Below are positions 23,268-49,778 of a stretch of DNA of 64,000 nucleotides, piece after piece. The stretch lies in the IMG/VR virus record IMGVR_UViG_3300021963_000084, positions 18,460-82,459 of that record; one strand, given 5' to 3'. A program made the translations under genes and the position numbers. Below the pieces are notes generated by a model that had not been told where the DNA came from, ran no database searches, and saw nothing but the letters and a program-made list of their open reading frames with translations. The DNA is from a virus. Every line of letters begins with the position of its first letter. Position 1 is the stretch's first letter.

Positions 23268-23600
23268 ATGTCCGCAATTACAATTAATGTAGTAATAGAG
23301 CAGGGGTCTGATTTTGCAGCGACCTTTACCATTAAGAATGCGGATGGTTCTTACTTGAATCTGACTGGATTCACAGCAGAAAGTAAGATGAAAAAAAGTT
23401 ACTACACTAGTAGTTCTGTGGCATTAAATGTTACTTTTACTGATAGAAGTAGAGGAATGATTACATTATCATTACCCGCTGCAACTACAACTACATTGAC
23501 ACCAAAAAGATACGTTTATGATATTATCTTAACTTCACCAATTGGAGTTAAAACTAGAGTTGTTGAAGGAATTGCTACAGTAACTCCAGGAGTAACATAG
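23268..23600 (+). CDS. Small beta-sandwich virion-like protein (110 residues)
   Basis: The N-terminus 'INVVIEQGSDFAATFTIKNA' followed by 'GSYLNLTGFTAESKMKKSYY' resembles the N-terminal beta-sandwich of phage baseplate upper proteins (BppU-type: 'qGdt...vdltg...akirk'). The C-terminus 'YVYDIILTSPIGVKTRVVEG' fits the same fold. The similarity is by eye only. It sits behind a late promoter and its TAG stop overlaps the GTG start of the next gene, so the two are coupled and probably assemble together. Likely a fibre adaptor or accessory virion protein; exact role unknown. Confidence 0.65.
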   Translation: MSAITINVVIEQGSDFAATFTIKNADGSYLNLTGFTAESKMKKSYYTSSSVALNVTFTDRSRGMITLSLPAATTTTLTPKRYVYDIILTSPIGVKTRVVEGIATVTPGVT

Positions 23601-31600: not shown

Positions 31601-34600
31601 ATTGCATCTACAGAAACTCAACTCTTTACAATCAGTGGTGCTGCATCCAATGTTCAGAGAGGATTTGGTTACTTTGCTACTGGTTCACTCTTCAATATTG
31701 GTTCACTGGAAGAAAAAGTTGCTTATAGTTACAACACTTCTTCAAGTACTAAATTTGAAAATCTTGATTATCAATTTATTGATAATTCACCTACAATTAC
31801 AGATGATTATGGCTATATCAATAATGCTGCGGGAGATATTGACGATTACGGCAATATAGGTATTACTTCACAGCAAACACCATTTGGTATTCTTAATCTT
31901 AGTGGTGGTTCTGCCGAAGTATTCAAACCAATTCTTGCTTGGAATGGTTCAGGTAATATTAATATTAGGGGTGAAGTTCTCGTTGGATTTACTCTTAGTG
32001 GTAAGTTTAGTCCTGAAAGCACTGACCTCTTTACAATCTTTGGTACTGCTGAATCTTCTAGACCATTCGTTGCAGTAACTGGTGGTTCACTCTTTACTGT
32101 TGGAGATAGAGTAGAAAGAGCATCTTACAGCTATAATACTTCTTCAATCGTTGCATATGACACCAGAGATTATCAGTTTATCACTGCCTCTGGAATTACA
32201 ATTGATTATGGAAATATTCTTGGTACTCAAACGAATATTGAAAATTATGGTTATATTGTAAATCTTGAGTACGCTTATCCATTTGGTAAGTTCAGAATTC
32301 TTGGCGGTGAAGATGAAAGCATTATTCGCAGAAGAGCATTTGCTGGTTCTGGTTCTCTGTTTGCTATTGGAGGAGAAGGTGATGCTTACAGTAGAATTGC
32401 TGTTACTGAAACTCAACTTTTCAATATTTCTGGTTCTGCTATCGAGAAGAATACCGAAAGATATATTGGAACTGGTTCACTCTTCTCATACAATGGTCTT
32501 GTAGAATCTGTTGCTGTAAGTCCAGACGAAGAAACCACTGGTCTCTTCAGAATTTCTGGTGCTGCAATCGAGAAGAACACAGAAAGATATATTGGTTCTG
32601 GCGATGCTATTACAATCCAAACTGCGATATTCCCAGAATATCTGTACTATCGTCCAGTTCCTCGTTATGTCAATTCTGTTTATGGACCTATTGGCGGAGA
32701 GTTTTCAATCTCTGGTGCTATTTCACAGAGAGCAACAAATTCTTATGTTGGAACTGGAAGCATTTTTGCTGGTGGAACAGCAGTAGAAGTATTCCAGAAA
32801 GCATATGTTGGTTCTGGTGTAGAATTTGTTTCTGGAACTTCCAAAGAAAGATTTATGCCAGTACATATTGGTACTGGTTCACTGTTCAGTATTGGAGGAA
32901 TTTCGGAGGCAACGACAAAAGTTGTTCCATCAGAGACTCAACTCTTCAAAGTTTCTGGTGCTGCTGTCGAAACTCACACCGAAGTATACATTGGAACAGG
33001 AACAGAATTTGTATCTGGCGATTCTACTACTTCCAAGTCCAACATTCATATTGGTTCTGGTTCACTGTTTACGTTCAACAGCGGCACGGAGTCTGTTGCG
33101 GTTGTTGCAACTACAACAATTCTTTACAATATCTCTGGTCAGGCAACAGAAGCATTTGGCAGAGCAACATACGAAGGTTCAGGAAGTCTGTTTACTCAAA
33201 ACGGAATTGCTGAATCCAGAACTTATATTGCTCCTACCGAAACTTGCCTCTTCAGAGTATCCAGTGCAACAACTGAAAGTGTTACTTCTGCAAATGTTGG
33301 TTCTGGAACAGAATTTGTTTCTGGAATTTCAATCAACAGCTTTATTCCTCGTTACTTTGGTTCTGGTTCGCTGTTTGCTGTTGGCGGAGAGGGCAATGCA
33401 TATGCAAGAATTGCTTCAACCGAAACCCAACTCTTCAATGTAACTGGTTCTGCAGAAGCAAGCAGAACAAATCTTTACGTTGGTTCTGGTTCGCTCTTTG
33501 CAATCAACAGCGGCACCGAATCTGCTGCAGTTGTACCATTAACAACTGGTCTCTACAATATCAATGGTCAAGCAACAGAATCAAGAACGCAAACGCAAAT
33601 TGGTTCTGGTTCTCTGTTCGCTGTTGGTGGTGCATCAGTTGTATTCAGCGATGTTGCAACAACCGAAACTCAACTCTTCAGAATTTCTGGTGCTGCAACA
33701 GAAGCACATACAGAATTCTACTCAGGTTCTGGTTCCGAGTTTATTTCTGGAACGGCAGCGGAAAGATATCTGCCTACTATTATTGGCACTGGTTCTCTGT
33801 TTGCATTCAACAGTGCAACAGAATCTTCAACTGTTTCTATTCCAACCGAAACTCAACTTTTCAGAGTTTCTGGTTCTGCAGATATCAGAGAATCCAATAC
33901 TTATGTTGCATTTGGAACGGAATTTATTTCTGGTTCACTTACAGAGAACAGCAGAAAATCTTATGTTGGTTCTGGTTCTCTGTTCACAATCAATAGTGCA
34001 ACCGAATCTACTTCTATTGCAGTTCAAGCAGAGACTCAACTCTTCAGAGTTTCTGGTTCCGCTCTGGAAAAAGATTCAGCATCCTATGTTGGTTCTGGTT
34101 CCGTTACTCTTGCAGCGGGCGCAGCAGAAATCAAAACTTCTGTTCCTACAATCGAAACTCAACTGTTCAGAGTTTCTGGTTTTGCAACCGAGAGACATAC
34201 AGAATCTTATGTTGGAACTGGAACAGAATTTGTTTATGGTGGAGTTCAGGATTCTTCTACTGCAATTTATGTTGGTACTGGAACACTCAGAACAGTTTCT
34301 GGTGCAGCAGAATCCACAACAATTTCGATTCCAAACGAAACTCAACTCTTCAGAGTTTCTGGATTTGCTACTACTGCATACAACGCAGTATTTACAAATA
34401 TTGGTTCTGGTCAAGAAACAATTTCTGGTTCTGCAACAGAAAAGAATGCAGAAAACTATGTTGGCAAAGGTTCACTCTTTACCTTCAATTCAGCATCAAT
34501 TGCCAGCACTATTATTATTCCAATTCAGACAAATCTCTTCAGAATTTCTGGTAGAGGTGCTGATAGTTACACCAGAATTTCTGTATTTGAAGGCGGTCAA

Positions 34601-34675
34601 ATTAATATTTCTGGTCAGTCTACAGATCAAAGAGTTGAGTTTGTTCCTGCAAGAATCTTCGGAACAATAATTTAA
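25610..34675 (+). CDS. Giant 3021-residue repeat protein (probable adhesin or fibre)
   Basis: I do not recognise a family for this protein. Two repeat regions dominate. From ~25700 to ~32300 there are about 17 copies of a ~133-residue unit. Each has a 'Y-x-YNTSS' strand, a triplet such as 'DYGSITASGTTVNYGLV' plus 'DYGYV', a 'YPFGTL' strand and a 'GSGSLF-x-x-GG' strand. From ~32300 to ~34640 the units shorten to ~61 residues with 'ETQLFRVSGSA' and 'YVGSGSLFTIN'. Composition is rich in Gly, Ser, Thr, Tyr and Phe, nearly free of Cys, with no signal peptide or membrane segment. Regular spacing suggests an extended beta-solenoid or fibrous protein. Its place among fibre genes and the Mtd-N-like gene makes a host- or surface-binding virion protein the best guess. 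The N-terminus has no known attachment domain. Confidence 0.75.
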   Translation: MTAYTYNATSNEGMGVSSSGSAAPTIVYSYTTATEDLVVYNDYLSVSQVHNVSIDFGSIVSPGDVAFDYKYITPDFNDQNKVKTYGGSSNVLATKVFNGEGLIKVGEYVPPVFIWIGSGTLFEMGGDITRMVAPGITGPPIVSSTTRIYTGSGSVEYNINSSKSRNYTYDFGVSFDDTSFITRNYGLLESPHSTAFDYGSIDSFSSLAYEDYRYIDYIPVFGKLSIQGFANPLSKVFTETSSGTLFEVGSVTESILYQEQSDTNTSLFRVFGSATIDKNLLPTIRSYTGFANLFNIGTKTESATYNYNSSSIVGYAEIDYQSITTSGTTSNYGSIIDEVSNQYDYGSIVNVGIAKPYGSAFVTGFIVNKNTKTFVGSGDISNINGSAQAVSYNTPEETLLFNISGGYSSAYLVKTYIASGDVKTVISSENRNTYNYDINAVSLYNSQDFGAITASGTTANYGSVAVGSSAEKNYGYVIDNDFVYPFGTLTLSGNFSPKLRNSFFGSGGASVYGDATVVFAEPTPQVYKDTETALFNVFGAATTVFQRGAIYSGSGSLFNIGGSTSSRTWSYTFGSIVEFESENYGFITASGTTVNYGLVSVDSDAESDYGYVFNRQTEYPYRGLTTLQGQSTTIFNLGPSVIGSGSLFAINGAADTSAFVGNVFDSTDLFRVTGDAIALRSPKYDASGAYKALSGSTNTTTYSYNFSATQSYTEGDYGSITASGTTINYGLVSEGSSVGFDYGYVIDNKILKSPFGSIFISGAFSNLKLTDAYAGSGTINVSGNAALVFVEPSPQIYVDKDPVLFFVTGNANVEFYRRPSFIGTGRISTLNGSASSRVFTYSEQSINPYSTTNYGFITASGTTVNYGLIINSSDSEFTYGFVVERGIQYPYGTLQLSSESTSAKTKTAVGEGSFFTIKGSAESTTFVDKSVESTELFTLSGASTNNVAFKEFGSGSIKTILGTSDSATYHYNTSSVNLFNTTDFGSITASGTTVNYGLISVGSDAESDYGYVFDTISIYPFGPLNVRGNATTDLDTAPSYVGSGSLFILRGSADTLVPAIKTDTETSLFTIYGDAAVVSRTAYVGSGSVLNIGIGGESASYNYNQSSTYADGFAQTYTTEDFGLITASGITENYGSITVGSSAELDYGTLVIGSVVVPYGNLTISGGISNFKRAFGFSGSGSINSSGAAGVVFAEPTPQVYVDKEIALFRVYGDATTALNRRPIYVGSGSLFSISESISSVTYNYSFTSIEEFNTLNLGTITTSGTTTNYGSITTGSTGDIDYGYVIIRETEFPYRGRVDISGSATVQFNRIPSYEGSGTLFETGGSALIFSLFGKKVLESTDLYNVYGNAKTHFVPSYNTSGSFATINAPQDSASYSYNTSSILGYGTLNLGTITTSGTTANYGSVTQGSSAEFDYGYLIDTDVVYPFGTLNVYGSSPSIRILGVSIPATGSLFAIGGEADSRAITVETDTETTNLFNVYGEANVQVASAYDQFSSISFGSFFGTGYIEERATYHYNTSSKNLFSQFDYQSVSTSPSITADYGLIINETNSELNYGYINQNQSLYAFGPFTIGGSVTSSFLPTLNFKGSGRIDIYGACDLVVILTAKKEPESTDLYEVSGSANVAVIKPVPQEKGYITLLSGAAESVTYIYNETVVNEFSGIDYGTITASGTTIDYGSVTIPSSSGIDYGSVVFTTTTYPYGSFSYSGSAAAVFNLGPIYIGSGSLLATGGAAETVLFAAETTDLFKVSGSANAPFIKSYVGDGSLFNIGEKIEAATFAYNTYSVSEFVSQDYQSVSSVAGIANNYDSIDDEPALALSYGLITDVTTLYPFGTFNVSGSAAVVAYQVYTQIGTGSLFATGGSAETRLFAEVSTDLFKVSGSANAPFSRPYTGTGSLFKIGDKIEAVTYSYNGSSEIPFNNFDYGLVTAFGITENYGSITNNSAVAEDYGSITLIDPIKPYGAIRFNGSSGVVFAPTPYQGSGTLFAAGGEADAKVIIASTETQLFTISGAASNVQRGFGYFATGSLFNIGSLEEKVAYSYNTSSSTKFENLDYQFIDNSPTITDDYGYINNAAGDIDDYGNIGITSQQTPFGILNLSGGSAEVFKPILAWNGSGNINIRGEVLVGFTLSGKFSPESTDLFTIFGTAESSRPFVAVTGGSLFTVGDRVERASYSYNTSSIVAYDTRDYQFITASGITIDYGNILGTQTNIENYGYIVNLEYAYPFGKFRILGGEDESIIRRRAFAGSGSLFAIGGEGDAYSRIAVTETQLFNISGSAIEKNTERYIGTGSLFSYNGLVESVAVSPDEETTGLFRISGAAIEKNTERYIGSGDAITIQTAIFPEYLYYRPVPRYVNSVYGPIGGEFSISGAISQRATNSYVGTGSIFAGGTAVEVFQKAYVGSGVEFVSGTSKERFMPVHIGTGSLFSIGGISEATTKVVPSETQLFKVSGAAVETHTEVYIGTGTEFVSGDSTTSKSNIHIGSGSLFTFNSGTESVAVVATTTILYNISGQATEAFGRATYEGSGSLFTQNGIAESRTYIAPTETCLFRVSSATTESVTSANVGSGTEFVSGISINSFIPRYFGSGSLFAVGGEGNAYARIASTETQLFNVTGSAEASRTNLYVGSGSLFAINSGTESAAVVPLTTGLYNINGQATESRTQTQIGSGSLFAVGGASVVFSDVATTETQLFRISGAATEAHTEFYSGSGSEFISGTAAERYLPTIIGTGSLFAFNSATESSTVSIPTETQLFRVSGSADIRESNTYVAFGTEFISGSLTENSRKSYVGSGSLFTINSATESTSIAVQAETQLFRVSGSALEKDSASYVGSGSVTLAAGAAEIKTSVPTIETQLFRVSGFATERHTESYVGTGTEFVYGGVQDSSTAIYVGTGTLRTVSGAAESTTISIPNETQLFRVSGFATTAYNAVFTNIGSGQETISGSATEKNAENYVGKGSLFTFNSASIASTIIIPIQTNLFRISGRGADSYTRISVFEGGQINISGQSTDQRVEFVPARIFGTII
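25700..32300 (+). repeat. ~400-bp (133-residue) coding tandem repeats, about 17 copies
   Basis: The triplet strand occurs near 26563, 26950, 27350, 27757, 28165, 28557, 28970, 29380, 29780, 30195, 30600, 30985, 31378, 31768 and 32168. Spacing is always 385-415 bp. Two more divergent copies lie near 25764 and 26170. Copies share protein strongly and DNA moderately, so they are older duplications kept in register. Confidence 0.85.
32300..34640 (+). repeat. Shorter ~61-residue coding repeats, about 14 copies
   Basis: ETQLF-type strands recur near 32402, 32533, 32934, 33113, 33239, 33421, 33545, 33662, 33845, 34028, 34152, 34334 and 34523, often ~183 bp apart, alternating with 'GSGSLF' or 'GSGTEF' strands. 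Short DNA stretches such as GGTTCTGGTTC are reused almost unchanged, for example at ~33055, ~33360, ~33483, ~33603 and ~33968. Confidence 0.8.
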
Positions 34676-34955: not shown

Positions 34956-37900
34956 ATGGCAAAGCAGTTATCTTATTACTACACTTTTACACCAGGCACA
35001 AACACTGTTGTAGTGAGTGGTAATGTTAACAGGAAAAGACTGTTACTGATTACCAACACCACAAGAAATGTAATCATTTATAATATGACCCAGCCATCGC
35101 TGGGTGCATCATCAATTACATATAATGATGCAACAAATGAAACTACAGTTGTACTTACATACAATTGTGGTGCTGCTGGAATGCTTTCCACAGACGTTCT
35201 TCAGATTTTCTCTGAACAAGACGCTGTAACATTCCAACCTGCAGATTGGTTAGTTGACCCTGTTAGCAAATTGCGTGTATCGCAACCTAACACTTTGATT
35301 GATACAGACTTTGAATATGGTCTTCAGTCAACCAAGTGGGAATCTCTGGAAAGAGTAAACAACATTCCAAGTTTCTATTCTTCCACAAACGACACTCCAC
35401 TTAGCAACATTACGAGTGTAACTACAAATGGCGGCAAGGAAGTTACGGTAACTACTTCTTCTGCTCACGGTCTGACCACTGGTACTCCAATTGATATTCG
35501 TGGTCTGAACTCAATCACTGCCGAGGGCACATATCTTATCCGTAAGACAACTGATTATCAATTCACCTTTGAGGTATCTGCTGTTCAGGGTGGTACTCCT
35601 TCTATACCTATTTCAATTTTAACACCTTATACTAATGTAATTGTTGGTCGTTTCTATGTCAACTCTTCACTGAATCTTGACAATAGCACAACAAACGAAG
35701 ATGGTCCTATTGCAACTGATTCTGTATCACCATCTAGTACATTAACCGCAACAACTTCGTATGACCACGGTTTTGTTGCTAATGCACCTTTTTATATCAC
35801 AAACAGCCTTGGTAATACTTCGGTAAACTTTGACCCCGCAGCGTTCTCGATCGGTGGTAATATTGAAGATAGAACTGCTTTCGACTTTGATACAGGTTTC
35901 TTTAACCCATATGAACCAGTACACGATGGTTGCACACTCAGAAGAATTCCTGCAACTCAACTTGATAACCGTTCAACAACCGCTGTAGTAACTGGTTCAA
36001 TTTCTGGTACTACTCTTAACGTTTCTGGTGTAACTTCAGGTACTCTTGTAATTGGACAAACAATTACTGGTGCTGGTGTATCACCAAACACTGTAATTAC
36101 TGCTCTTGGTACTGGGTCAGGTGGAACTGGTAGTTATACTGTTAATATTACTCAAACTGTATCTGCTGGTACTACTTTAACTGCAGCATTCCCAACTTCT
36201 GGTTTTATTACAATTCCTAATCATGGACTTGTAACTGGTGATGCAATTTGCTACATCGGTACAACTGGATCACAAAGTCCTCAAATTGCTGCTGTTACCG
36301 CTGGATACTTCCAGGTTTCTTCAGGTAATATTCCAACATATAATAATGGTCCTACAACGCCTGGTCAGAGCACAGACCTCTCCAGTTGGATGTATGCCGT
36401 TGTAATCGATAAGGATACCATTAGAGTAGCAACCAACCCTAAGGATGCTTATGATAGAACTAACCTGATTGTATTCACATCTTTTGGTGATTCTCCTAAC
36501 AATGATCTGTTCTTTGGTCTGATGGCTAAGAGAGGATTTGAAATTCAATCTTCAATCCTAAACGTTCAAACTATTGCTGGTTCTTCTGAAGTAAAAGTAA
36601 ATCTTGTTTCTGGTGCAACTTGCAGAAGTGTTGGCATTTACCCAGAAATGCAGGTAACACTTTCCGACACTGGCGTAAGTGCTATGGATGGTGTTTATGT
36701 AGTCAAGGAAAACCCAGTTACTGTAAACTTTGCAAATGAGATTTTCCAAGAGAATGACACTCATTTCATTATGGAAGGTCCTACAAATGCATCCGCAGCA
36801 CTTGTAACTCAGGCAGCTACTGCTACCTACACCTTATCAGCAACTGCTGCTGCAACTAATGTATTCCTGACACAAAATCTTCTTGAGAGAACTGTAACAC
36901 CAGCAAGCATCGTAACTGTTTCTGGTTCTACTGTAACAATTAGCGGTGTATCTAATCTTGGTGATGGTGCATCTCCTTATAGAGTTGGATCCACTGTAAG
37001 ATTTACAGCTCTCGGTGGTGTAATCACTGGTGCTACTGCGTATACTGATTATTATATCACTGCAGCAACTGCTATTGTTAATGGTGTATCGACACTGACA
37101 CTTTCTTCAACTCATCCAACAGTTGCTAACACAGCACTGACTCTTGCAACTACTGCAACAACTATTGCTACTTGCACGGGTTCGATTTCAGGTACTACTC
37201 TGACTGTAAGCGTAGCTCCAACTGGTGGTACTTTACAAATTGGTCAAGTAATTACTGGAACTGGTATTGCTCCTGGTACTACAATTGTAGGTTTTGGTAC
37301 TGGTAATGGTAGCAACACTGGTACTTACTATGTAAGTATTTCGCAAACAGTATCTTCTACTTCAATTACTGCATCAGTATTCTTGAAAGTTTACACTAGT
37401 GGTATTCGTACTCAGATTCACGCTGGTGCGCTTTCTTGGATGAACCACACCAGAATGTCGATACATGATTGGGGTTCAATCACTGCTAAGATGTTTACTC
37501 GTGAGTGCATCTCAAACAGTGGTTCGCAAATTTTCCTCAAGAATCACGGTCTGTTAAATGGTCAACCTCTGATGTATGTCGGTGGTGGTAACGGTTGGGC
37601 AATTAATAGTGGTACTCCATTCTTCTTCCAAGAATCTGCAAACCAGTCACCAATATACTTCGTTGAAACAGTTGACCGTGATAATATCAGAATTTGGACT
37701 TCTGAACCTGATGGTGTTGTAGGTGCTTATGGTGGTTATACAAATAACGCATCTTCAATTTCTGGTAACCAGCAAGTTACTCTGAGTCCAACAGGTTCAC
37801 CAAGCGTTCTGCCTGTAACTCACGCTGGTGGTGTATATCAACTGCACCCTGGATTTGTAGTTGCAAACTTCACTTCAGTTGCCAATACTCAAGGTCAAGG

Positions 37901-40900
37901 TAGAGATAAGGCTGTCGGTCTGTTCCAGAGAGTCCCTGCTTGGATGACTGAGAATGCTCCTGTCATTATCAAGACTAACGTAGGTGCTTCACTGCCCGTA
38001 TCTGATACAAGACAAGTTCCTGGTGGTTGGCCTTCAACTGGTCCAGCAATTTTCCAATCAACACCAAGTACTTGGGGTACTTCTGCTGCAAACAATACTG
38101 TTCAGTTTGCTAAGTACTTCGCAAGAGGTATTCAGGAAAACTATTCAGGTGAAACAACCTTCACTGGTACTATTGCAGGAACCACTCTTACAGTAACTGC
38201 AGTTCCCGTAAACTCAGTAATTCCAATTCAAGTTGGAATGGAACTGACTGGAACTGGAGTATCTGCTGGCACCGTAATCATTGCTGGTCCTACTGCAGGT
38301 GGAACTGGTACTTATACAGTTAATATTACTCAATCAGTAAGCAGCACCACAATTAGAGGTGTAACTAGAGCAGAATATACTCAGTCAGGTAGAGCAGAAT
38401 TTGCATTCTCGATTGCTCCTAATGGACAACCAATCAACTTTATTACTACAAGTGCTGTTCCTGGAACTTCAACTGCAACTGCTCCAGCAAGATTCTTCTG
38501 CACAAGAGTTGTAGATAATCCTTATGCTAACACATTCTTCCTGCCATTCCACGGTGGTACTGTAGGTAGAAGAACAACATATGTAACTGGTGCGTTCAAT
38601 ACTTCAACACCAGTAGGATCACAAGAAACAGAATCAATTCTTCCTATTGCAACTGGATTCCCAAGACCTGCATTTGATTACATCACCGACCGTAACAACA
38701 TTAGATGGCCAAGAACAAACCTTGTTCTGAACCACGGTGCTGCTCAAGGTACTACAACATTTACTGGTTTCGATTTCAATGGTACTGATTACGCTAACGT
38801 TGTTTCTAACAACACTCGTTATCAAATGGTTCCTCTGACAAATGATATCTTCAGAATTGCACAGGTAGGTACAAGACTACCAACAGGTTCACCTACAATT
38901 CAATTCACACTGAACCAGTCACAAACTCAGAGACAGAACCTTCAAACCGTTGCTAACGTAGGTACAAGAGCTACTAACGCTGCTGGTGGTCCTTTCGGTG
39001 TAACACAAGTCAAGTTCTTGACTTCAGCGACAACAAGAATTCCTAATGCTAATGCAAACAGAATTATTGTTCCTATTCAAAGACTGACATTCCTTGAGAA
39101 TGACCTTGTAAGATATGATACAAATGGTGGTTCCGAAGTTAATAGCTTGTTTGGTGGTCTGAACGGTCTTCAGAATGGTAGCGTTTATTCGATTAAAAAC
39201 GTTTCTCTCAAAACACCTATCGGAACTGGTCTTTCCACAAGCAGAAACTTCAGTTCAACTGCAACTGTATTAGAGTTTGATACTGCAAATACTGCAATTT
39301 ACACTGCTTCGATTGCAGGAAATGTAATGACAGTAACTGCTGTTTCTACTGGTGTACTCCAAGTTGGTGAATTAGTTACGGGAACTGGTGTTGCTGCTAA
39401 TACAATTATTACAGCATTTGGTACTGGAACTGGTGGTATCGGAACATACTCTGTATCTGGTCCAGCACAAACAGTATCATCAACCACAATGCAAGGTGTA
39501 TCCTCAGTAAGAGTTGAAGAAGGAGATATTCTTCAAATTGGTTCTCCTGATGGTGCTGCTGAGCAAGTTCTTGTAGGAGCTGCTGCAAGATTTACTGGTA
39601 GTATTTCAGGCACAACTCTCACAGTTTCTGGAGTAACAAGTGGCACTCTTGCTCTGAATCAAACACTGACTGGAACTGGCGTAACTCCTGGAACAGCAAT
39701 TGTTGCATTTGGTTCAGGTAGTGGTGGTGCTGGTACTTATACTGTTAATATTTCACAAACAGTTACTGCTGGAACTGTAATGGCTGCTTCAAGTGGAAGC
39801 AATTCAATTACAGTAACAAGAGGATTTGCTGGCACAACACCTCAGGCAATTCCAGAGGCTGCTCCAATCTTTAAAATTTTTGGTTCATTCCAACTATATT
39901 CACAGAACTTGCTGACACCAAGAAACTTCACTATTCTTGCTGCTTCGGTCAATGCAACAACCTTTATCTTTACCCAAACTGACCATAGACTGAATACTGG
40001 TGACCCAATCGTATACATCAGTGGTGGTGCTACTGATCCATTCACAGGTGCTGGACTTGCTGCAAACACTATTGTATTTGCAATCGTAATTGATGCAAAC
40101 ACATTCAGAATTGCACCTACTAAGGAAGCTGCATATTCAGACTTCTTCATAACAACCACTTCAACGAATACCAACTTCCTCACAGTTGTTGATACAATTC
40201 CTCTGAAGTCGTTCGTTAACCAGTCTGACTTTGACCACAAACTTCTCAACGTTTCTTCAACTGGTTCGATTGATGGTCCTTATACTGCTCAATCTGTAAC
40301 TTCAAGAACTCTGAGACTGAAGCCAACTAATAATTCTGCACTGACCATTAACCCAAGAGAACTGGTATTCAACCCAGCAAAAACAGTTAACCTGAAGACT
40401 GGTCAGTTCTACTATGGTGGTCACGGTTTCTCGCAAGGAACGAGAGTTATTTACTCCAGAAACGGAAACCGTTTTGAGATTGGTAGACAGAAGCAACTGG
40501 TATTTGAGATTTCTCAAATTAACAGAACAAACAATGTTGCTACAATTACATTTACTGCACCTCATGGTTTAACTGTTGGTCAAACTTATCAGGCACAATA
40601 CCTCAATGTAACGACTGCTGGACAAGATAGTTTTGATATTACAAATGCTCCTGTATTTGCAGTATCAGCAACTCAAGTTTCTTATGCGACTGGTCAAAAT
40701 GGGCAATCAGCAGTTTCTACACAATCTGGTACTGGAACAATGGCGCTGTGGGGCACACAACACCCAATGCAAGGATTTAATTGCCTATATGATATCGACC
40801 TTTCAACTGTTACTGCTCCTGTAGGAAATGGCACTACTGTAACCTACACCATTGCACATAACACAGTTCAAGAACCATTTGCTGTTGGCGATACTGTAAA

Positions 40901-43900
40901 CGTAACTGGTGTTCTGGTTGGAGGTAGCACCAATAATGGTTACAATGGTACATTCAAGGTTGTGTCTTCAACTTCAACCACTATCACAGTAACCAATAAT
41001 ACTACTGGCGGTTCTCCATCTGTTCCTGCAACTGGTTGTTCAATCAGAGGTGTTTATTTCGTAGTTCGTGAAAGTTTCGATATCTTCCGTCTCGCTAGAA
41101 CAAAAGCTCTGGCACACGCTGGCGTAGGTATTCAAAACTTCTCTTGCCAAGGTTCCAACTTTGTTGCTCCAGTTCAGTTTGCAATTAGCAATATTTCACG
41201 TTCAGCAAACGTTGCTACTGTAACAACAGCTGCTGCTCACAATCTTGTAGTTAATCAAACATATAATGCTTCTATCATTGAGATTACAACTGCTGGTTTC
41301 TTATCATTCGCAGCAAGCAACGTATACATTACTGTCACTGGTGCTAATACATTTACATATGCTAACGCTGGTACGAACGTAGGTTCAACTGCTGTTACTG
41401 GAACTCTGACAATTTCAGGTATTAATGAAGTTGGTCATAAACTGATTTCGTTCCAGGTAAGTGGTGAAACTCTGGGTAATGGTACTGCTACCGTTATCGC
41501 AAGAGACGCTATCCTGACTGACCCAACAACACTTGCAAACAGTGTAAGACCAGCGACCGATAGAATCTCTTTCGGTATAGTGAGTCACGGTTTCGTAACG
41601 GGTGACCGTATTACCTACCGTATTTGGGGTAATGGTTCTGTAATCCTTGGTCTGACTGATGGTGCTAATTATTTTATTAACAACACTGTCAACCCTAACA
41701 CGACTGGTCCTCTCTCAAGAGGTGGTGTTGAATCTGGACAAACTGCAACACAATTCTCACTTCACAATACTTGGGTAGGTGCTTATACCAACACTGATAT
41801 TGTTGATATTCTTGGTGGTGGTACTGGTGCTCTGCATCAGTTTAAGGTTTCCAACCCAACTCTGAGAGGCACTACATTCAAGGGTGAATGGTCATCTGGA
41901 GATAACTATGCTTACGGTGATGTTGTCACATATCGTGGCGAATACTTTATGTCAGTCAGCGGTGCTACTGCTCCTGGGCAAACAACATTTGTTGCTAACA
42001 CTGGTAGAACTCCTGTAGAAACTAGTGGTGCATATAACAACGCTTGGCAGCAGGTTCCTAACCTTCCTGCATACTCATCAAGATTCCTTGCACAGTATAA
42101 GGGTGGCGATACAGTTCTTCTGTCGAATACTGTTCCAACGAGAACTGTTCCTTTTGCTGCTAGTGTTACTACACCTTCACAAACAACTGGTGTATTCTCT
42201 GTTGCTAACCACAGACTTGCTACGGGTGATGGCGTAATTTACCGTACTAATAACCTCGGCGGTCAAAACTCCAACGGTTCATCACTGCAGAGCATTTATG
42301 CATCAGGTATTCCACAAAGACCACAAGCTGGTAACAGCGTAGTCTGGAATAACGATAAAATTCTTGCTGACAACATCTATTATGTAAACGTTCTCGATGA
42401 GAGCAACTTCACGCTGCACTTATCACTTGCTGGAGCACTTTCAGGTAACTCTTTCGTCGGCAACATTAACCAACCAACTGGTTTTGCGATTACCAACTTC
42501 ACAAGAGCTCAAATCAATAACATCTGGACTAACACTATTACTGCTACCTCTCACGGTCTCGTAGTTGGTGCAAGATATCTGGGTTCTGTTGATTGTGCAA
42601 CTGGTCCTGCTGACCCATCAACTTTTGACGCATACAACGTAGTTCTGACTGTAACTGATGCTAACACACTGACATATCCAAGTACAACCTCGGGTGCTGT
42701 CGGTTCAATTGCTGGTACTGGTACTCTGAGACTTATCGACGCAACTGATTTGGTAATTCCTGGTTCAGCATTCACTGGAACTGGTGTTCATAGACTTGAG
42801 AAACTTGAAGGTGTTGTTTATCAACCAACTGTTATCTCGGTTAACAGCGATAACGAAATGGTTATCACTGACCCACTGCCTTCCAGACAGATTGTATTCA
42901 ACCCACAAGGTTCATTCGTAAATCAGGCTGGTACAACTCAACCAATTGTTAACCTTGTAACTGGTGACATTTATCTGCCCAATCACGGTATTACTACTGG
43001 TACTAAACTGTACTATTCATCTGGTTTCCAGATTGGTACAAGACTTGGTAATACTCCTGTCGCTGCTGGTATTTACTTTGCAATTAAGATTAACGATGAT
43101 ATTATTAGACTTGGTGCAAGCACGACTGCTGATGCTGCAAACGCATTAGCAAACCTGTCTGCTGCTCTTCGTGGTCAAGCATTTGTTCCATCATCAACAG
43201 GTTCTGGTTTCAACCACTACCTCATCGTTGCTGCTCCTGCTGGTTCTACCAACATTCGTTATAACACAAGTGGTGATTTAATCAATGATACAACTGGCGC
43301 TGCAGCTGCTAACATTGGACCCGCAAACTCCAACTACTACAGCAACCAAGTTTCTGCTAACCTTCGTGACGGTGTACTTCAGGGTGTTAACTTCCTGTAT
43401 CCAACTCAAGTTTATACCAGAGCAAACTGTGTTAACGTTCATAGACCATTTGACGGTGGTGTAGAACTTCAGGCTGCTAAGGCACCTCAAGTTATGATTA
43501 CCAGACAGACACGTAAGTACTTCCGTTATCAGTCTGGTAAGGGTCTCCAGTATTCAACTGGTATCAACTTCAGTCCATCACTGGATGTTTCATACATCAC
43601 GCACGATGGTTCTACCTATGCAACTATTGTAACCAGAAAGGCACATAACCTTGTTGCTGGTAACAGAATTATGGTAGAGAACGTTGAAGTAACTTCAGGT
43701 GTAGCAACTCCATACACAAATCCATCAAACAATCTGTACTTCACAGTATTTGATGTAATTGACGAGTTTACCTTCCGTTATGCAACAAACGGAGTACCTG
43801 CAGACCTCGCTCCTTCAGGATTCCCAGATCTGTTTGTATACGAATGGTCTGGTGCTTCTGTTCGTGCTGGTATGTTTGATGACCAAAATGGTATGTACTT

Positions 43901-45047
43901 TGAATATGATGGTCAAAATCTGAATTGTGTAAGAAGATCTGCAACTGGTCAGTTAGGTGGTTTTGTAAGTGTAGCATTCAACAGCAATATTGTAACTGGT
44001 ACTAACACTAGATTTACTAAGCAACTTTCACCTGGACACTCAATCGTCATTCGTGGACAAACCTACAAGGTTGGTTCGGTTGTAAGTGATACTCAAATCA
44101 ACATCACTCCTGCATACAGAGGTGTTGCTGGTAGCAGAATCGTTATGACGAAAGTTGAAGAAGTCAGAGTTCCTCAATCACAGTGGAATATTGATAAGTG
44201 TGATGGAACAGGAATTAATGGATTCCACCTGAATATTCACAGAATGCAGATGGCATACATTGATTACTCCTGGTATGGTGCTGGTAAGGTACGTTTCGGA
44301 TTTAAGGATACTGATGGTCGTGTATTCTACTGCCACGAGTTTGTACATAACAACAAGAAAGTTGAAGCATACCTCCGTTCTGGTAACCTTCCCGCTCGTT
44401 ATGAAATTGAAAATGGTATTAACCCAACCTACTCACCATCGCTCTATCACTGGGGTGCTTCGGTAATTATGGATGGCGTATTTGAGGATGACAAGGCATA
44501 CCTGTTCACCGCTGCTTCAGGTTCCGCTGGTTCTGACATTATTACAGTTCCTCAGTCTCTCGCAGGAACAGTTGTTCCAATTCTTTCACTGAGATTAGCA
44601 CCTGCTGTTGATAGTTCTCTCTCTGGTTCACTTGGAAGCAGAGACTTAATCAACCGAATGACTGTTAAACCTAACTCTTGCGGTCTGGTTATTACTAACG
44701 CAGCAAGCAGAGCTGCTTCGGTTCGTCTGATTCTCAATGGCAACCTTTCACAATCTGCTTATTTTAGCGGTTATGGTTCACCATCACTGTGTCAAGTAAT
44801 TAAGCACACTGGTCAGGCACAAGATACTATCACTGGCGGTACGATTGTATTTGAATTCCGTGCTGCTGCTGGCGCTCCTATCACTCAGGACCTAGGACAG
44901 CTGATTGAACTTGGTAACTCGATTATGGGCGGTGACTTTGTATATCCAAACGGTCCAGATATTCTGACTCTGGCAATCGTTCCTACTGATACTGGTGCAG
45001 TAACAACCGTCACTGCACGTCTCACCTGGACTGAATCGCAGGCATAA
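34956..45047 (+). CDS. Giant 3363-residue modular fibre protein, expanded paralogue of the 424-residue protein
   Basis: The longest gene in the window. Residues ~103-130 ('[19 protein letters not shown]') and the last ~515 residues ('[20 protein letters not shown]', '[12 protein letters not shown]', 'QWNIDKCDG', '[16 protein letters not shown]', 'LPARYEIEN') align with the 424-residue protein encoded at 48504. Some 2,700 residues of repeats lie between. These include about ten HGL-type units ('[19 protein letters not shown]', '[13 protein letters not shown]', '[14 protein letters not shown]') that often end in 'DxxxxRxAxxxxxA'. They also include five ~67-residue '[13 protein letters not shown]' units. 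Codon use is rich in C- and G-ending codons towards the end, as in the capsid gene. Only a weak late-like TATAAAGT (34919-34926) precedes it. A strong terminator follows. Probably a long tail or capsid-surface fibre. Confidence 0.8.
35988..39788 (+). repeat. Five ~67-residue 'GSISGTTL' coding units
   Basis: Copies begin near 35988, 37175, 38159, 39300 and 39591. Each reads roughly '[14 protein letters not shown]', '[15 protein letters not shown]', '[11 protein letters not shown]'. They are dispersed rather than strictly tandem, being separated by HGL-type domains. Confidence 0.8.
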
Positions 45048-45069
45048 TTCTCTCAAACATAAGATACAG

Positions 45070-45095
45070 AGAGGGGGGCAACCCCCTCTTTTTTT
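45070..45095 (+). terminator. Strong intrinsic terminator after the 3363-residue gene
   Basis: AGAGGGGG (45070-45077) pairs with CCCCCTCT (45082-45089) around a GCAA tetraloop and is followed by seven T residues (45089-45095). It closes the fibre cluster before the neck genes. Confidence 0.9.
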
Positions 45096-45102
45096 ATAAA
45101 TA
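45095..45102 (+). promoter_or_regulatory. T4-type late promoter fused to the terminator T-run
   Basis: An exact TATAAATA whose first T is the last T of the terminator, 23 bp before the gp13 ATG. It restarts late transcription for the neck and head block. Confidence 0.75.
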
Positions 45103-45125
45103 ACTTTATAGGAATATTATAACTA

Positions 45126-45920
45126 ATGGCAAGACCCGCTTCTAGGCAGCAATTAATAGACTATTGTTTGCGTAAACTAGGATTTCCTGTACTTGAAATT
45201 AACGTAGATGACGACCAAATTGAAGATGCAATTGATGATGCAATTCAATTTTTTCAAGAACGTCATTTTGACGGTAGCATTCGCACCATTTTAAAATTAA
45301 GAATTACACCAGAAATAGTATCATCTGCGAAAACCAATACTACAGTATCAGGAACTACATACTTAGAACAAAATAATTACATCACAATTCCAGACCATAT
45401 CCTTGGAATCACTCAAGTTTATGCTCAGGACAACAGTGTATCTTCAGTATCAGGAAATATTTTTAGTATCAAATATCAGTTATTTTTAAATGATTTCTAT
45501 AACTTCGGTTCAATGGAAATCCTTAATTACTATATGATTAAGAGTTATCTTGAAACTCTTGACTGGGTTATCTCAAACTTTAAACCTATTCGTTTTAATA
45601 AAAGAGAAAATAAACTTTGGTTAGATACTGATTTCGACCAACTTACATCAGGTAATTATCTATTAATTGATTGTTATAGAATGCTTGACCCAACACAAAG
45701 CACTGAAGTATGGAATGATGTTTGGATGAAGAAGTATGCCACAGCACTCATCAAACGTCAATGGGGTCAGAACTTAATCAAGTTCAGAAATGTCTCTCTG
45801 CCTGGAGGAATTACATTAAATGGCAGAGAAATTTATGAAGATGCAGAAGCAGAAATTGAAAAGATTATGGCAGAATTCCAACTGGCAGCAGAACTTCCAC
45901 CTCTGGATATGATTGGATAA
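45126..45920 (+). CDS. 13: Neck protein gp13
   Basis: A 264-residue protein (T4 gp13: 309 residues). In T4, gp13 and gp14 close the filled head and form the tail attachment site. The N-terminus 'SRQQLIDYCLRKLGFPVLEI' and 'DDAIQFFQERHFDG' are hallmarks of gp13 in marine T4-like phages. 'WMKKYATALIKRQWGQNLIK' near residue 205 is also conserved. The C-terminal 'AEAEIEKIMAEFQLA' is helical. Transcription starts at its own late promoter directly behind the fibre terminator. Its stop overlaps gp14's start as TAATG, so gp13 and gp14 should be made in matched amounts. Confidence 0.93.
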   Translation: MARPASRQQLIDYCLRKLGFPVLEINVDDDQIEDAIDDAIQFFQERHFDGSIRTILKLRITPEIVSSAKTNTTVSGTTYLEQNNYITIPDHILGITQVYAQDNSVSSVSGNIFSIKYQLFLNDFYNFGSMEILNYYMIKSYLETLDWVISNFKPIRFNKRENKLWLDTDFDQLTSGNYLLIDCYRMLDPTQSTEVWNDVWMKKYATALIKRQWGQNLIKFRNVSLPGGITLNGREIYEDAEAEIEKIMAEFQLAAELPPLDMIG

Positions 45921-47020
45921 TGACACGAAATCTTTACTTCACTCAAGGAACAAAGGGTGAACAAAATTTAATACACGACTTGATTGAAGAACAAATCAAG
46001 ATGTATGGCATTGAAGTATTTTATATTCCAAGAAAAGTTTATGAAGATAAACTTTGGAATGATATTTACTATTCACAGTACAGAGATAGTTATCTCATTG
46101 AAATGTATCTGGAGAATTTTGAGAACTTTGGCGGCAAAGGAGATATGCTTTCCAAGTTTGGATTGCGTGTTACTGATGAAATATCTTTAACTGTATCACG
46201 CCGTAGATGGAAAGATTTTGTTGATTTAGCGACAAATAAAATTGTTGCAGGTAGACCTAATGATGGTGATTTAATTTTCTTTCCATTGAATAATACAGTA
46301 TTTGAAATCAAGTATGTAGAAAATCAGAAACCTTTCTACCAACTAAATAGCTTATACGTCTATACAATGACGTGTGAGATTTTTGAATATGGCGACAGCA
46401 TATTTGAAACTGGAAACCAGAAGATTGATAATCTTGAACAAGAATCTGGAGTATTCCCCATCTATCTTTATAGTGGTGGAACAGGTAATTTTAGTCCTGA
46501 TGAAACAGTAGTTGGTACAAGATTTACTGCTACTGCCTCTGGTACATTAGTTGGTAGTTATCTTGGAACTATTATTGTTACAAATCCTGGTGCTGGGTAT
46601 GTTACTCCGCCATCGGTAGCAATATATGACGCTCAAGGTAACTTTGTTGACAATGGTTCTTGCACAATTTCTGGAGGATTAGTTACATCAGTAACTGGTC
46701 CAAATGCAGTTTATACTTTCTCTGGTGTTCCTAGAATTGTTATTGGTTCTTCACCCAAAAACTATACTGCTAAAGCAGCAGAATGGAATCCAACAGCAAT
46801 CGTTCTTGACGTTGCTTACAGCACTGGAAACTTTGCTCCGAATGAACAAATCATCGGTCAAACATCTGGTGCTAAGTGGAGAGTTAGAGAATATGATACT
46901 CTTGATATGACTGATAGTTATTCAGAAAATAGAGTAATTGAAAATAATGGAGATTTAATTATTGACTTTACTGAAAGCAATCCTTTCGGTGAATTCGGAG
47001 ACATTCAAGGTAGCTTCTAA
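45920..47020 (+). CDS. 14: Neck protein gp14, with inserted beta-modules
   Basis: The partner of gp13 at the head-tail junction. The N-terminal part is conserved ('YGIEVFYIPRKVYEDKLWND', 'SRRRWKDF', 'RPNDGDLIFFPLNNTVFEIK'), as is the C-terminal 'DLIIDFTESNPFGEFGDIQG'. It has 366 residues against 256 in T4. The additional sequence is mostly residues ~185-315, which carry a GxGY unit ('IIVTNPGAGYVTPPSVAIYD') and two GE/SGA units ('GNFSPDETVVGTRFT', 'GNFAPNEQIIGQTSGAKW'). These modules are the same kinds as in gp8 and the baseplate giants, which is odd for a neck protein. Both ends overlap neighbours as TAATG. Confidence 0.92.
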   Translation: MTRNLYFTQGTKGEQNLIHDLIEEQIKMYGIEVFYIPRKVYEDKLWNDIYYSQYRDSYLIEMYLENFENFGGKGDMLSKFGLRVTDEISLTVSRRRWKDFVDLATNKIVAGRPNDGDLIFFPLNNTVFEIKYVENQKPFYQLNSLYVYTMTCEIFEYGDSIFETGNQKIDNLEQESGVFPIYLYSGGTGNFSPDETVVGTRFTATASGTLVGSYLGTIIVTNPGAGYVTPPSVAIYDAQGNFVDNGSCTISGGLVTSVTGPNAVYTFSGVPRIVIGSSPKNYTAKAAEWNPTAIVLDVAYSTGNFAPNEQIIGQTSGAKWRVREYDTLDMTDSYSENRVIENNGDLIIDFTESNPFGEFGDIQGSF

Positions 47021-47826
47021 TGTTAGGAACTTATTTTTATCACAAAATTATTCGTAAAACAGTTACCACATTTGGTACGCTGTTTAATAATATTCAACTT
47101 AATACATTTGATGAGCAAGGAAACTTTGTAAAACAAGAAAAGGTTCCTTTGGCATATGGACCTGCTCAAAAGTTTTTAGCAAGATTGCAGCAGGCACCAG
47201 ACTTAGATAGAAAATTTACCATCACAATTCCAAGAATGTCATTTGAAATGACAGGAATTTCTTATGATGGTAGTAGAAAAGTTCCCCCTACACAATTAAA
47301 TAGAGCACTTTCTGATAACAGTGGTTCTACTAACAGAAAGCAGTATATGCCAGTTCCTTATAATGTAGAATTTGAATTAACAGTTATTGCAAAAACTCAG
47401 GATGATGGTCTTCAGATTGTGGAGCAAATCTTACCATTCTTTCAACCACAATTTACAGTCACGATTAATCTTATTCCTGAGATGGAAGAAAGTCGTGATG
47501 TTCCCATCATTTTAAACAGCGTTGATTATAATGATGATTATGAAGGTGATTATAGTACAAGAAGATATATAACTTGGACACTTCGTTTTACTGCAAAAAC
47601 TTATCTGTACGGTCCCGTCACTGCTGGCAATATTATCAAAAAATCTATCGCTAATATCAACATTGGTGATAAGGTTACTAATGCCAGAGTTCTTAAGTAT
47701 CAAGTTCAACCAGAAGCAATTACTGATCAGGATGGAGATAATGATGTAGATGCTGTCGATACAGCACTACTTACAGCAGAAGATGATTTTGGATTTAATG
47801 AGGGTATAACATACTATGGACCATAA
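47020..47826 (+). CDS. 15: Tail terminator / sheath stabiliser gp15
   Basis: At 268 residues it matches T4 gp15 (272 residues), the hexameric ring that caps the tail tube and sheath and connects to the neck. The N-terminal 'LGTYFYHKIIRKTVTTFGTL' followed by 'NNIQL' and 'VPLAYGPAQKFLARL' parallels T4 ('FGYFYNSSFRRY...LFSNIQI...VPITY'). 'IPRMSFEMTGISYDGSRK' corresponds to T4 'LPRINLHLVDFSYNAPFK'. The end 'DGDNDVDAVDTALLTAEDDF' contains a Ca-loop-like D-x-D-x-D stretch, probably incidental. It overlaps gp14 (TAATG) and gp16. Confidence 0.93.
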   Translation: MLGTYFYHKIIRKTVTTFGTLFNNIQLNTFDEQGNFVKQEKVPLAYGPAQKFLARLQQAPDLDRKFTITIPRMSFEMTGISYDGSRKVPPTQLNRALSDNSGSTNRKQYMPVPYNVEFELTVIAKTQDDGLQIVEQILPFFQPQFTVTINLIPEMEESRDVPIILNSVDYNDDYEGDYSTRRYITWTLRFTAKTYLYGPVTAGNIIKKSIANINIGDKVTNARVLKYQVQPEAITDQDGDNDVDAVDTALLTAEDDFGFNEGITYYGP

Positions 47827-48238
47827 ATTTCAAGAAAATATGGAAGATCTTTTTGATATTGAACCTGTGGAAACTGAAGTAGTTTCCACTAAACCTCCTG
47901 TTCAGAATGAAGAGGATATTGATGCTGACTATAAGTATGCTCGTACAGAACTTTATGAATTAATTCAGAAAGGTCAAGTTGCAATTGATGAACTGATTGA
48001 AGTTGCTCGTAGTAGCAATCATCCTAGAGCATATGAAGTTGCTTTTCAGGGTATTAAAAATGTTGCTGACATCACTGATAAGTTAGCAGACCTTCAAAAG
48101 AAAATGAAGGATATTAAAACTGAAGATAAAAAATCTCCCACTACTGTTAATAATACTATGTTTGTTGGTTCCACTGCTGACCTTGCAAAGATGCTTAAGA
48201 ACGCATCAAAAAACCTAAATAATCAAAAAGGCAAATAA
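47816..48238 (+). CDS. 16: Terminase small subunit gp16
   Basis: A 140-residue acidic-helical protein (T4 gp16: 164 residues) that forms the ring regulating gp17 and choosing DNA for packaging. The conserved C-terminal 'NNTMFVGSTADLAKML' aligns with T4 'NATVFMGSPTELMDEI', and the central 'AIDELIEVARSSNHPRAYEV' aligns with T4 '[21 protein letters not shown]'. The start overlaps gp15 by 11 bp; a second ATG eight codons in is also possible. In T4, gp16 and gp17 are adjacent, whereas four extra genes separate them here. Residues ~65-110 are predicted coiled coil. Confidence 0.88.
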   Translation: MDHKFQENMEDLFDIEPVETEVVSTKPPVQNEEDIDADYKYARTELYELIQKGQVAIDELIEVARSSNHPRAYEVAFQGIKNVADITDKLADLQKKMKDIKTEDKKSPTTVNNTMFVGSTADLAKMLKNASKNLNNQKGK

Positions 48239-48240
48239 AA

Positions 48241-48501
48241 ATGAGAATCAGATTACTCGGAAGCGAGGCAGCACTATCTACAAGTAGCGGCAACACTTTT
48301 GGAAATGCAACATTAGTAAGATTAGTTAATCCCACTGGTTCTGGTGTTGTAGTAACTCTCAATGAATCTGATGATTCTACTGCTGTGGGTACATTTACTA
48401 TTCCTGCTGGTCAATCAGAATTGCTTGAAAAAGAACCAGAACAAAGAGTTCGTGCCGCAAGCACCAGTGTTCTTGGAGTTAAAGTAGGTTATACTCACTA
48501 A
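48241..48501 (+). CDS. Small beta-rich protein (86 residues)
   Basis: It begins 2 bp after gp16 and ends 2 bp before the 424-residue gene. The protein is beta-rich: 'ATLVRLVNPTGSGVVVTLNE' followed by 'GTFTIPAGQSELLEKEPEQR' and 'VLGVKVGYTH'. The layout resembles small phage proteins that supply a single beta-sandwich, with a 'tip' at the 'PAGQS' turn. The spacing suggests it works with the next protein, which I take to be a surface or fibre component. Not assigned to a named family. Confidence 0.7.
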   Translation: MRIRLLGSEAALSTSSGNTFGNATLVRLVNPTGSGVVVTLNESDDSTAVGTFTIPAGQSELLEKEPEQRVRAASTSVLGVKVGYTH

Positions 48502-48503
48502 TC

Positions 48504-49778
48504 ATGGCACAGTATAGTAAGCATTATAACGATTATCTAGAGCAACAAAAGACCAACTTTGAAGTTGTGATGCTTGCCGATAACTACGGCAACATCAACG
48601 CTGGAACTGGTGGTACGGCAACTGATGCTTTTGGCAGAAGTAGAGTTGCAGATCCAGTAACATTATTTGATAGTCAGCATCGTTACGAAGAAAATTATCA
48701 TTGGAATACTGCTTTAACTGGTGCTGCTAATAAGCAATATAATATTCATGAAAGTTCTATATCGCTTGTAGTATCTGGTGCTCTCAATGACAAAGTAGTT
48801 AGAGAAACCAAAAGAGTATTTCCATATCAACCAGGAAAGTCTCTGCTGATTATGAATTCATTTGCTTTCAATCCTCAACTTTCTGGTCTTCGTCAGAGAA
48901 TTGGATACTTTGGTACAGATAACGGTATCTATTTTGAGAATGATGGAACAGGAAACTATCTTGTTCTTCGTAGAAAACTCACATCTGGTGCTGCTACTGA
49001 AGTAAGAGTAGCACAGGCAAATTGGAATACCGATAAGTTTGATGGAGCTGGTCCAACATTAAGAACGCTTGATATCTCAAAAGCAAATATCTTCTGGTTA
49101 GATATTGAGTGGTTAGGTGTTGGTGATGTTCGCTGTGGATTTGTTGTTGATGGAAGAATGGCAATCGCCCATACTTTCCATAACGATAATGTCAATCCAT
49201 CTGCTTATATGACCACTGCTATTCTACCACTAAGATTGGAGATTGAAAATACTGCTGCCACTGGCGTGTCTTCAACGATGAAGCAGATTTGTAACACAGT
49301 TATTTCCGAAGGTGGTTACGAGAAGAAAGTAAGAAAATCTCATGTAAGTAGAGATAGTAATATCGCTGCTTCAACATCGGCACTAACTCCTATAATCTCA
49401 TTCAGGTTGAACTCGGCATATAAAGATGCCGTGATTCTCCCAGAATCATTCCACGTATTTTCTAGCGTACAAGGAAATTTTGAAATTGTTGTTGTTCGTG
49501 GTGGTACATTAAATAATAATACTTGGGTCACTCAAGGAAAAGTTGATTACAATACTGCTGCAACAACTATTTCTGGAGGTACAAACACAACTCATTTTTA
49601 TCTTTCAACTACACAACAATCTGGTGGAGTTGGAGCTGGTGAAGATGGATATAACTGGGACACTCAACTCACTAGAGATTTAAATGGTACGACAGAAATT
49701 GTTACTCTTACTGCTAGATCTTTAGATGCTACTGATAAAAATATTCGTGGATCAATCTCATACTACGATCTGACATGA
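48504..49778 (+). CDS. Virion-like protein, compact paralogue of the 3363-residue giant (424 residues)
   Basis: 'DAFGRSRVADPVTLFDSQHR' (residues ~40-60) is a motif seen in phage surface proteins. 'RETKRVFPYQPGKSLLIMNS' (~100-119), 'TDNGIYFENDG' (~140), 'NWNTDKFDG' (~172), 'LGVGDVRCGFVVDGR' (~200) and 'LPLRLEIEN' (~240) all have counterparts in the same order in the 3363-residue giant. The last ~130 residues ('PIISFRLNSAYKDAVILPES' to 'GSISYYDLT') also match its C-terminus. This is therefore the minimal form of that fold. It is probably a virion or fibre component, since the family is found among marine phage structural proteins. It ends in an ATGA overlap with the next gene. Confidence 0.75.
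   Translation: MAQYSKHYNDYLEQQKTNFEVVMLADNYGNINAGTGGTATDAFGRSRVADPVTLFDSQHRYEENYHWNTALTGAANKQYNIHESSISLVVSGALNDKVVRETKRVFPYQPGKSLLIMNSFAFNPQLSGLRQRIGYFGTDNGIYFENDGTGNYLVLRRKLTSGAATEVRVAQANWNTDKFDGAGPTLRTLDISKANIFWLDIEWLGVGDVRCGFVVDGRMAIAHTFHNDNVNPSAYMTTAILPLRLEIENTAATGVSSTMKQICNTVISEGGYEKKVRKSHVSRDSNIAASTSALTPIISFRLNSAYKDAVILPESFHVFSSVQGNFEIVVVRGGTLNNNTWVTQGKVDYNTAATTISGGTNTTHFYLSTTQQSGGVGAGEDGYNWDTQLTRDLNGTTEIVTLTARSLDATDKNIRGSISYYDLT

Follow-up and report, generated by a model that had tools for sequence, protein, structure and literature searches.

One core shared by a giant and a small virion protein of a T4-like cyanophage, with modules inserted at predicted loops of the giant

Comparison of two proteins encoded in one gene cluster of a T4-like cyanophage, a giant of 3363 amino acids and a small protein of 424 amino acids, confirmed that they are homologous and share one core. 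Both probably go back to one ancestral virion protein, of which the giant would be a form with filled loops, a lectin-like platform equipped with binding arms, and the small protein the older form. The genes are located in a stretch of 64,000 nucleotides (the window), which is part of an 82,459-base IMG/VR virus record. Gene order and profile matches (baseplate wedge, equivalents of gp13, gp14, and gp15, gp16, gp17, sheath, and portal) place the virus among cyanophages of the Kyanoviridae kind. Both open reading frames are present as described in the original prediction, about 3.5 kb apart, the giant gene directly upstream of gp13 and the small gene between gp16 and gp17 (Table 1). The window also encodes a 3021-residue neighbour made of short repeats of the GSGSLFxIxGxA type (phrog_11522, function unknown, positions 25610–34675) and, among fibre genes, a glycosyltransferase (21852–23033) and a protein resembling an L-shaped tail fibre assembly factor (23268–23600).

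Table 1. Features of the giant and small genes (window positions; residues numbered within the respective protein).
Feature	Residues	Position	Strand	Remark
Giant virion protein gene		34956..45047	+	3363 aa, phrog_5838 family
Giant N-terminal domain	1–95	34956..35240	+	conserved in giants
Core segment N	98–132	35247..35351	+	counterpart of small residues ~38–72
Insert 1	133–2827	35352..43436	+	2695 aa
Core segment A	2828–2867	43437..43556	+	
Insert 2	2868–2966	43557..43853	+	99 aa, one HGL module
Core segment B	2967–2992	43854..43931	+	
Insert 3	2993–3069	43932..44162	+	77 aa
Core segments C–Z	3070–3363	44163..45044	+	remaining jelly roll and C-terminal beta domain
Insertion site 4 of giant		44415..44438	+	empty in this giant (8 residues)
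Small virion protein gene		48504..49778	+	424 aa, phrog_1645 family, between gp16 and gp17
Small-protein N-terminal tag	1–36	48504..48611	+	also on proteins without core
Small-protein turn region	73–84	48720..48755	+	matches insertion site 1
Small-protein loop	122–128	48867..48887	+	matches insertion site 2
Small-protein loop	158–164	48975..48995	+	matches insertion site 3
Small-protein loop	250–256	49251..49271	+	matches insertion site 4

Five pairs of landmarks had been proposed to follow each other in the same order in both proteins, and all were found at their places, at residues 106, 2850, 2975, 3076, and 3145 of the giant and residues 47, 100, 138, 173, and 241 of the small protein. BLASTP of the small against the giant protein yielded a main block with an E-value of 2e-19 and two further blocks of 0.002 each, the N-terminal block alone not being significant in this search. 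The best local score was 201, compared with a maximum of 69 in 300 shuffles. Profile alignment, which had been suggested as a check, matched the small family to the C-terminal part of the giant with probability 100 and E 8.4e-75, covering the small protein from about residue 77 to the C-terminus; a second alignment pair gave probability 100 and E 3e-53 for small residues 77–423. The giant is a member of phrog_5838 (profile E 2e-173, N-terminal domain and C-terminal core covered), the small protein a full-length member of phrog_1645 (E 3e-111, residues 1–420 of 424) like the proteins of S-RIM12 and S-RIM2 and S-SZBM1_190. The giant also matches the phrog_1645 profile (E 1e-50) but departs from the architecture of that family, an uninterrupted core with an N-terminal tag, by three loop inserts which break the core and by another N-terminus in which the tag is absent. 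A sequence search of the PDB gave no match for either protein, Pfam yielded nothing above cut-off for either, and a full-text literature search with incomplete coverage found no paper describing their relation.

The weakest of the matches is the N-terminal landmark (probability 84, E 8e-7 between family profiles). A hidden Markov model (HMM) of this landmark derived from giants only gave 12.1 bits with the small protein of the window, the maximum in 4,400 shuffles of 44 small proteins being 7.2 bits, and 31 of these 44 proteins scored above all their own shuffles. Of 179 small homologues, 140 have the match 5–7 residues ahead of the following landmark, and in the remaining 39 the HMM does not find it or puts it elsewhere. 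It is hard to detect by HMM in small proteins of the S-RIM2 type, where by eye 'YGLETDVWETD' comes near the giants' '[12 protein letters not shown]'. The modest match and the 39 failures would fit domain shuffling, in which the giant gained only the C-terminal lectin part and the likeness at the N-terminal landmark is accidental. This is unlikely, since the landmark is locked in position in most homologues and beats shuffles, and since the segment preceding the insert in a modelled 955-residue giant has the same strand pattern as the small protein.

The structure of the small protein was predicted with AlphaFold2 from 74 aligned sequences, yielding a model that consists almost wholly of beta structure and is poorly ordered over its first ~50 residues (pLDDT 85, pTM 0.81). 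In place of the over-long 3363-residue protein the giant side of the fold was represented by the complete 955-residue relative (locus L098, 41 aligned sequences), which is predicted to be almost all beta (pLDDT 80, pTM 0.78). Comparison of these models relied on strand order and on Foldseek hits common to both. As anticipated for the ends of the two proteins, the predicted strand order of the two models agrees, a concanavalin-A-like jelly roll being followed by a second beta domain, and all inserts are at positions where the small model has loops. Which loop received insert 1 is not certain, the landmarks in the sequence pointing to residues 73–77 and the order of strands to 81–84. Across the inserts, the small model also aligns with BFVD models of the giant type, in the case of one of 1253 residues with TM 0.69 over 780 columns; this model belongs to the giant type by TM 0.80 and 33% identity. 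The jelly roll of the small model conforms to the fold of the concanavalin-A-like superfamily, and its Foldseek matches in the PDB are lectin and GH16 domains (E about 1e-6, TM ~0.5–0.58 by target length), a fold also represented by the sugar-recognition domains of Emp46p and Emp47p. It differs from these domains by sequence identities of 9–13%, by the lack of a Pfam lectin family hit, and by the extra C-terminal beta domain, and the many top Foldseek hits reflect a common fold rather than kinship with any single protein.

At their N-terminal ends, over ~95 residues in the giant and ~36 in the small protein, the two proteins are unrelated. The 36-residue tag recurs on otherwise different proteins, some of them at the same gp16-gp17 locus, which suggests a reusable docking tag; proteins carrying it without the core are found for example at L001:17876-18664 and L030:13583-14230. 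Nothing corresponding to the N-terminal domain of the giant is present in the small protein or in the rest of the window. This domain is common to giants of all sizes, and the N-terminal 140 residues were found in 55 related giants. As the ends differ, their sequences suggest that the small and giant forms attach differently to the particle.

The inserts of the giant had been estimated at ~2,700, ~90, and ~75 residues, close to the sizes measured here. Besides HGL modules, insert 1 contains a ~70-residue GTGxYTV repeat in five copies and a weak stretch resembling the carbohydrate-binding CBM5/12 (window positions 41886–41972, giant residues 2311–2339, below the Pfam cut-off). The single module of insert 2 is homologous to the HGL modules of insert 1 (best E 7e-4), so that one module type occupies two loops. 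No DNA tandem repeats were found in the giant gene, the repeats thus having diverged at the DNA level.

A census of 65 non-redundant giants and 179 small homologues showed where the length resides. Insert 1 ranges from 181 to 2,728 residues in giants with both ends held, insert 2 from 88 to 397 residues in the 65 giants, and insert 3 is nearly constant with 77–86 residues in all giants. Site 4, following LPARYEIEN, holds 8–12 residues in some giants and 92–248 in others. Small homologues have 5–7, 11–20, and 9–27 residues at the first three sites. The giants reach from 955 to 3,400 amino acids. S-PM2 p173 (1095 aa), also of phrog_5838, has the same N-terminal domain, core, and HGL inserts; the giant of the window is three times longer, nearly all of this at site 1, and its site 4 is empty as compared to ~247 residues in S-PM2. 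In the shortest giants site 1 contains two HGL modules and site 2 a single one, and the larger site-2 inserts (218–397 residues) mostly contain two. Growth by HGL copies alone was considered and rejected, as the number of modules is only loosely correlated with the length of the insert (r 0.68). In S-B43 the region near site 3 carries another kind of insert, of ~80 residues. The intermediate homologues which the original prediction had proposed to look for were thus found as graded lengths among the giants, but no homologue with just one of the three inserts was encountered among the 65 giants and 179 small homologues. In the ten longest small forms (483–644 aa) the extra length is only between tag and core; the small homologues L112, L116, L162, L182, L183, and L185 have about 60–200 extra residues there. 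Tandem pairs of giant-family genes (e.g., 2471 and 1918 residues) were seen in L049/L050/L051, L060, L063/L068, and L095.

An unrooted maximum-likelihood tree of the shared core (88 rows, 378 columns, 44 giants and 44 small forms) separated the giants as one clade from all small forms with support of 100/100 and a long branch between them. The tree program warns of long branches meeting at this split, where the exact attachment is unsure. The second giant copies in L060 and L063 are placed with the S-CAM1 type. The two genes of the window are clearly not each other's closest relatives. L031, which encodes the nearest relative of the giant, lacks a small gene between gp16 and gp17; the small gene of L028 belongs to a different clade, and L030 has only a tag protein. 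Loci that include both gp15 and gp17, some of them redundant, contain 26 giant genes, of which five are accompanied by a small gene, one by a tag-only protein, and 20 by neither. The cultured complete genomes of S-BM3, S-PM2, S-RIM44, and S-CAM1 contain the giant only, those of S-SRM01, S-RIM12, and S-RIM2 the small form only. A small and a giant version of one fold occur together in the genome of the window and also in that of the cultured S-RIM32, with some 60 kb between them in the latter, and might coexist in one particle as originally predicted. A 3496-residue protein of S-RIM32, proteins of 1907–2073 residues upstream of gp13 in S-RIM12, S-RIM2, and S-SZBM1, and gp130 and gp137 of S-CREM2, which were checked as possible family members, are not homologous to these forms.

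With the deep split in the tree and partners that are not fixed, the giant and small forms are ancient paralogues or were separately acquired, and were not duplicated in place. The short distance within one cluster would fit a duplication of recent ancestry, the small gene having been copied in this phage and one copy then expanded. Such an event is highly improbable in view of the one deep branch parting all giants from all small forms, the near relatives of the giant with no small gene, one of another clade, or a tag-only protein, the distance in S-RIM32, and the complete cultured genomes which mostly have one form or the other. From the original scheme of duplication followed by nested expansion, the same fold, the inserts in loops, and the graded expansion are therefore retained, and the duplication in this genome or lineage is not.

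The small form also occurs in podoviruses and, by fold only, as proteins of similar length in archaeal tailed viruses. BFVD models of proteins from four haloarchaeal tailed viruses and from several giant viruses align with the small model along the greater part of its length. R4T8W4 of HGTV-1 and A0A410N6U5 of HFTV1 match in fold over the whole length (TM 0.76 and 0.65 by query length), and the haloarchaeal proteins, of 418–592 amino acids, are too short for long inserts. Independently, the phiGT1_4 record notes homology to Halovirus HGTV-1. The loci concerned are L269:10332-11588 in HFTV1 and L270:3697-4917 in phiGT1. From its length of 418 residues A0A410N6U5 is probably gp20 of HFTV1, the sequence of which gave no significant match to the small profile. 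HFTV1 gp20 was detected by mass spectrometry, and passages on the solved particle assign places in it to other gene products (PMC12494034). Judged from the models, this detected virion protein may share the fold of the small protein, and the archaeal link would offer a handle on a particle component detected in virions without an assigned place.

The unrooted tree leaves the direction of change unfixed, and the small form could have been derived from a giant through loss of inserts. We regard this as quite improbable, since the form without interruptions is found across podoviruses and, judged by fold, in tailed viruses of archaea, and a clean removal of all inserts is the less simple event. 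A wider reading is put forward only tentatively and may well not hold: the small core could be an ancient virion protein of tailed viruses, common to phages, haloarchaeal viruses, and perhaps also giant viruses of eukaryotes. It would have been retained as a lectin-like chassis that took up receptor-binding modules in its loops again and again, most extremely in the cyanophage giants.

Regarding function, T4 fibritin (wac), which has a coiled-coil whisker architecture, was considered for the giant owing to the position upstream of gp13 and was rejected, as the 955-residue relative is predicted almost all beta and the giant gene is not adjacent to gp13 in S-PM2 and S-RIM44. S-SZBM1_190, a 424-residue protein of the small family, was detected in purified virions with 3 peptides (PMC9146016, Table 1) and was tied to the small-family gene by order and length and by HMM. 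In S-PM2 the giant p173 carries the annotation virion structural protein and closes the co-oriented run p175-p174-p173. Its neighbour p175 belongs to a block described as adhesin components, with a mutation under strong selection while phage and host coexisted (PMC9910659); from gene order we infer that p173 is part of the same block. Head genes adjoin the gene for the small form in podovirus phiGT1 and that for the HFTV1 protein, which belongs here by fold. A lectin fold by itself does not establish sugar binding. Virion detection, gene context, and the predicted lectin fold together favour an adsorption protein at the particle surface which would bind glycans through modular arms, and this is our best guess. 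That the giant forms a long fibre is plausible.

According to the favoured explanation of loop filling, the common ancestor of both proteins would have been a virion protein with a concanavalin-A-like jelly roll and a second beta domain. In the lineage leading to the giant, beta modules would have been inserted into three surface loops of this jelly roll: a pair of HGL modules at site 1, a single one at site 2, and the 77-residue domain at site 3. Site 1 would then have grown by further internal additions up to 2,728 residues, and the N-terminal end would have come to differ, with the ~36-residue tag in the small and the ~95-residue domain in the giant form. On the particle the core may act as a lectin-like platform, with the modular inserts as arms that bind receptors or glycans and aid adsorption to cyanobacteria. 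The distribution of the small form, viewed beside an unrooted tree, suggests that it has the older architecture.

Very large adhesion proteins are common in marine phages, and to our knowledge their origin is rarely traceable. Here the series from an uninterrupted core of 420 residues to a version of 3,400 residues can be aligned and the points of growth located, and with this range alignable the lengthening of such proteins becomes testable by comparison.
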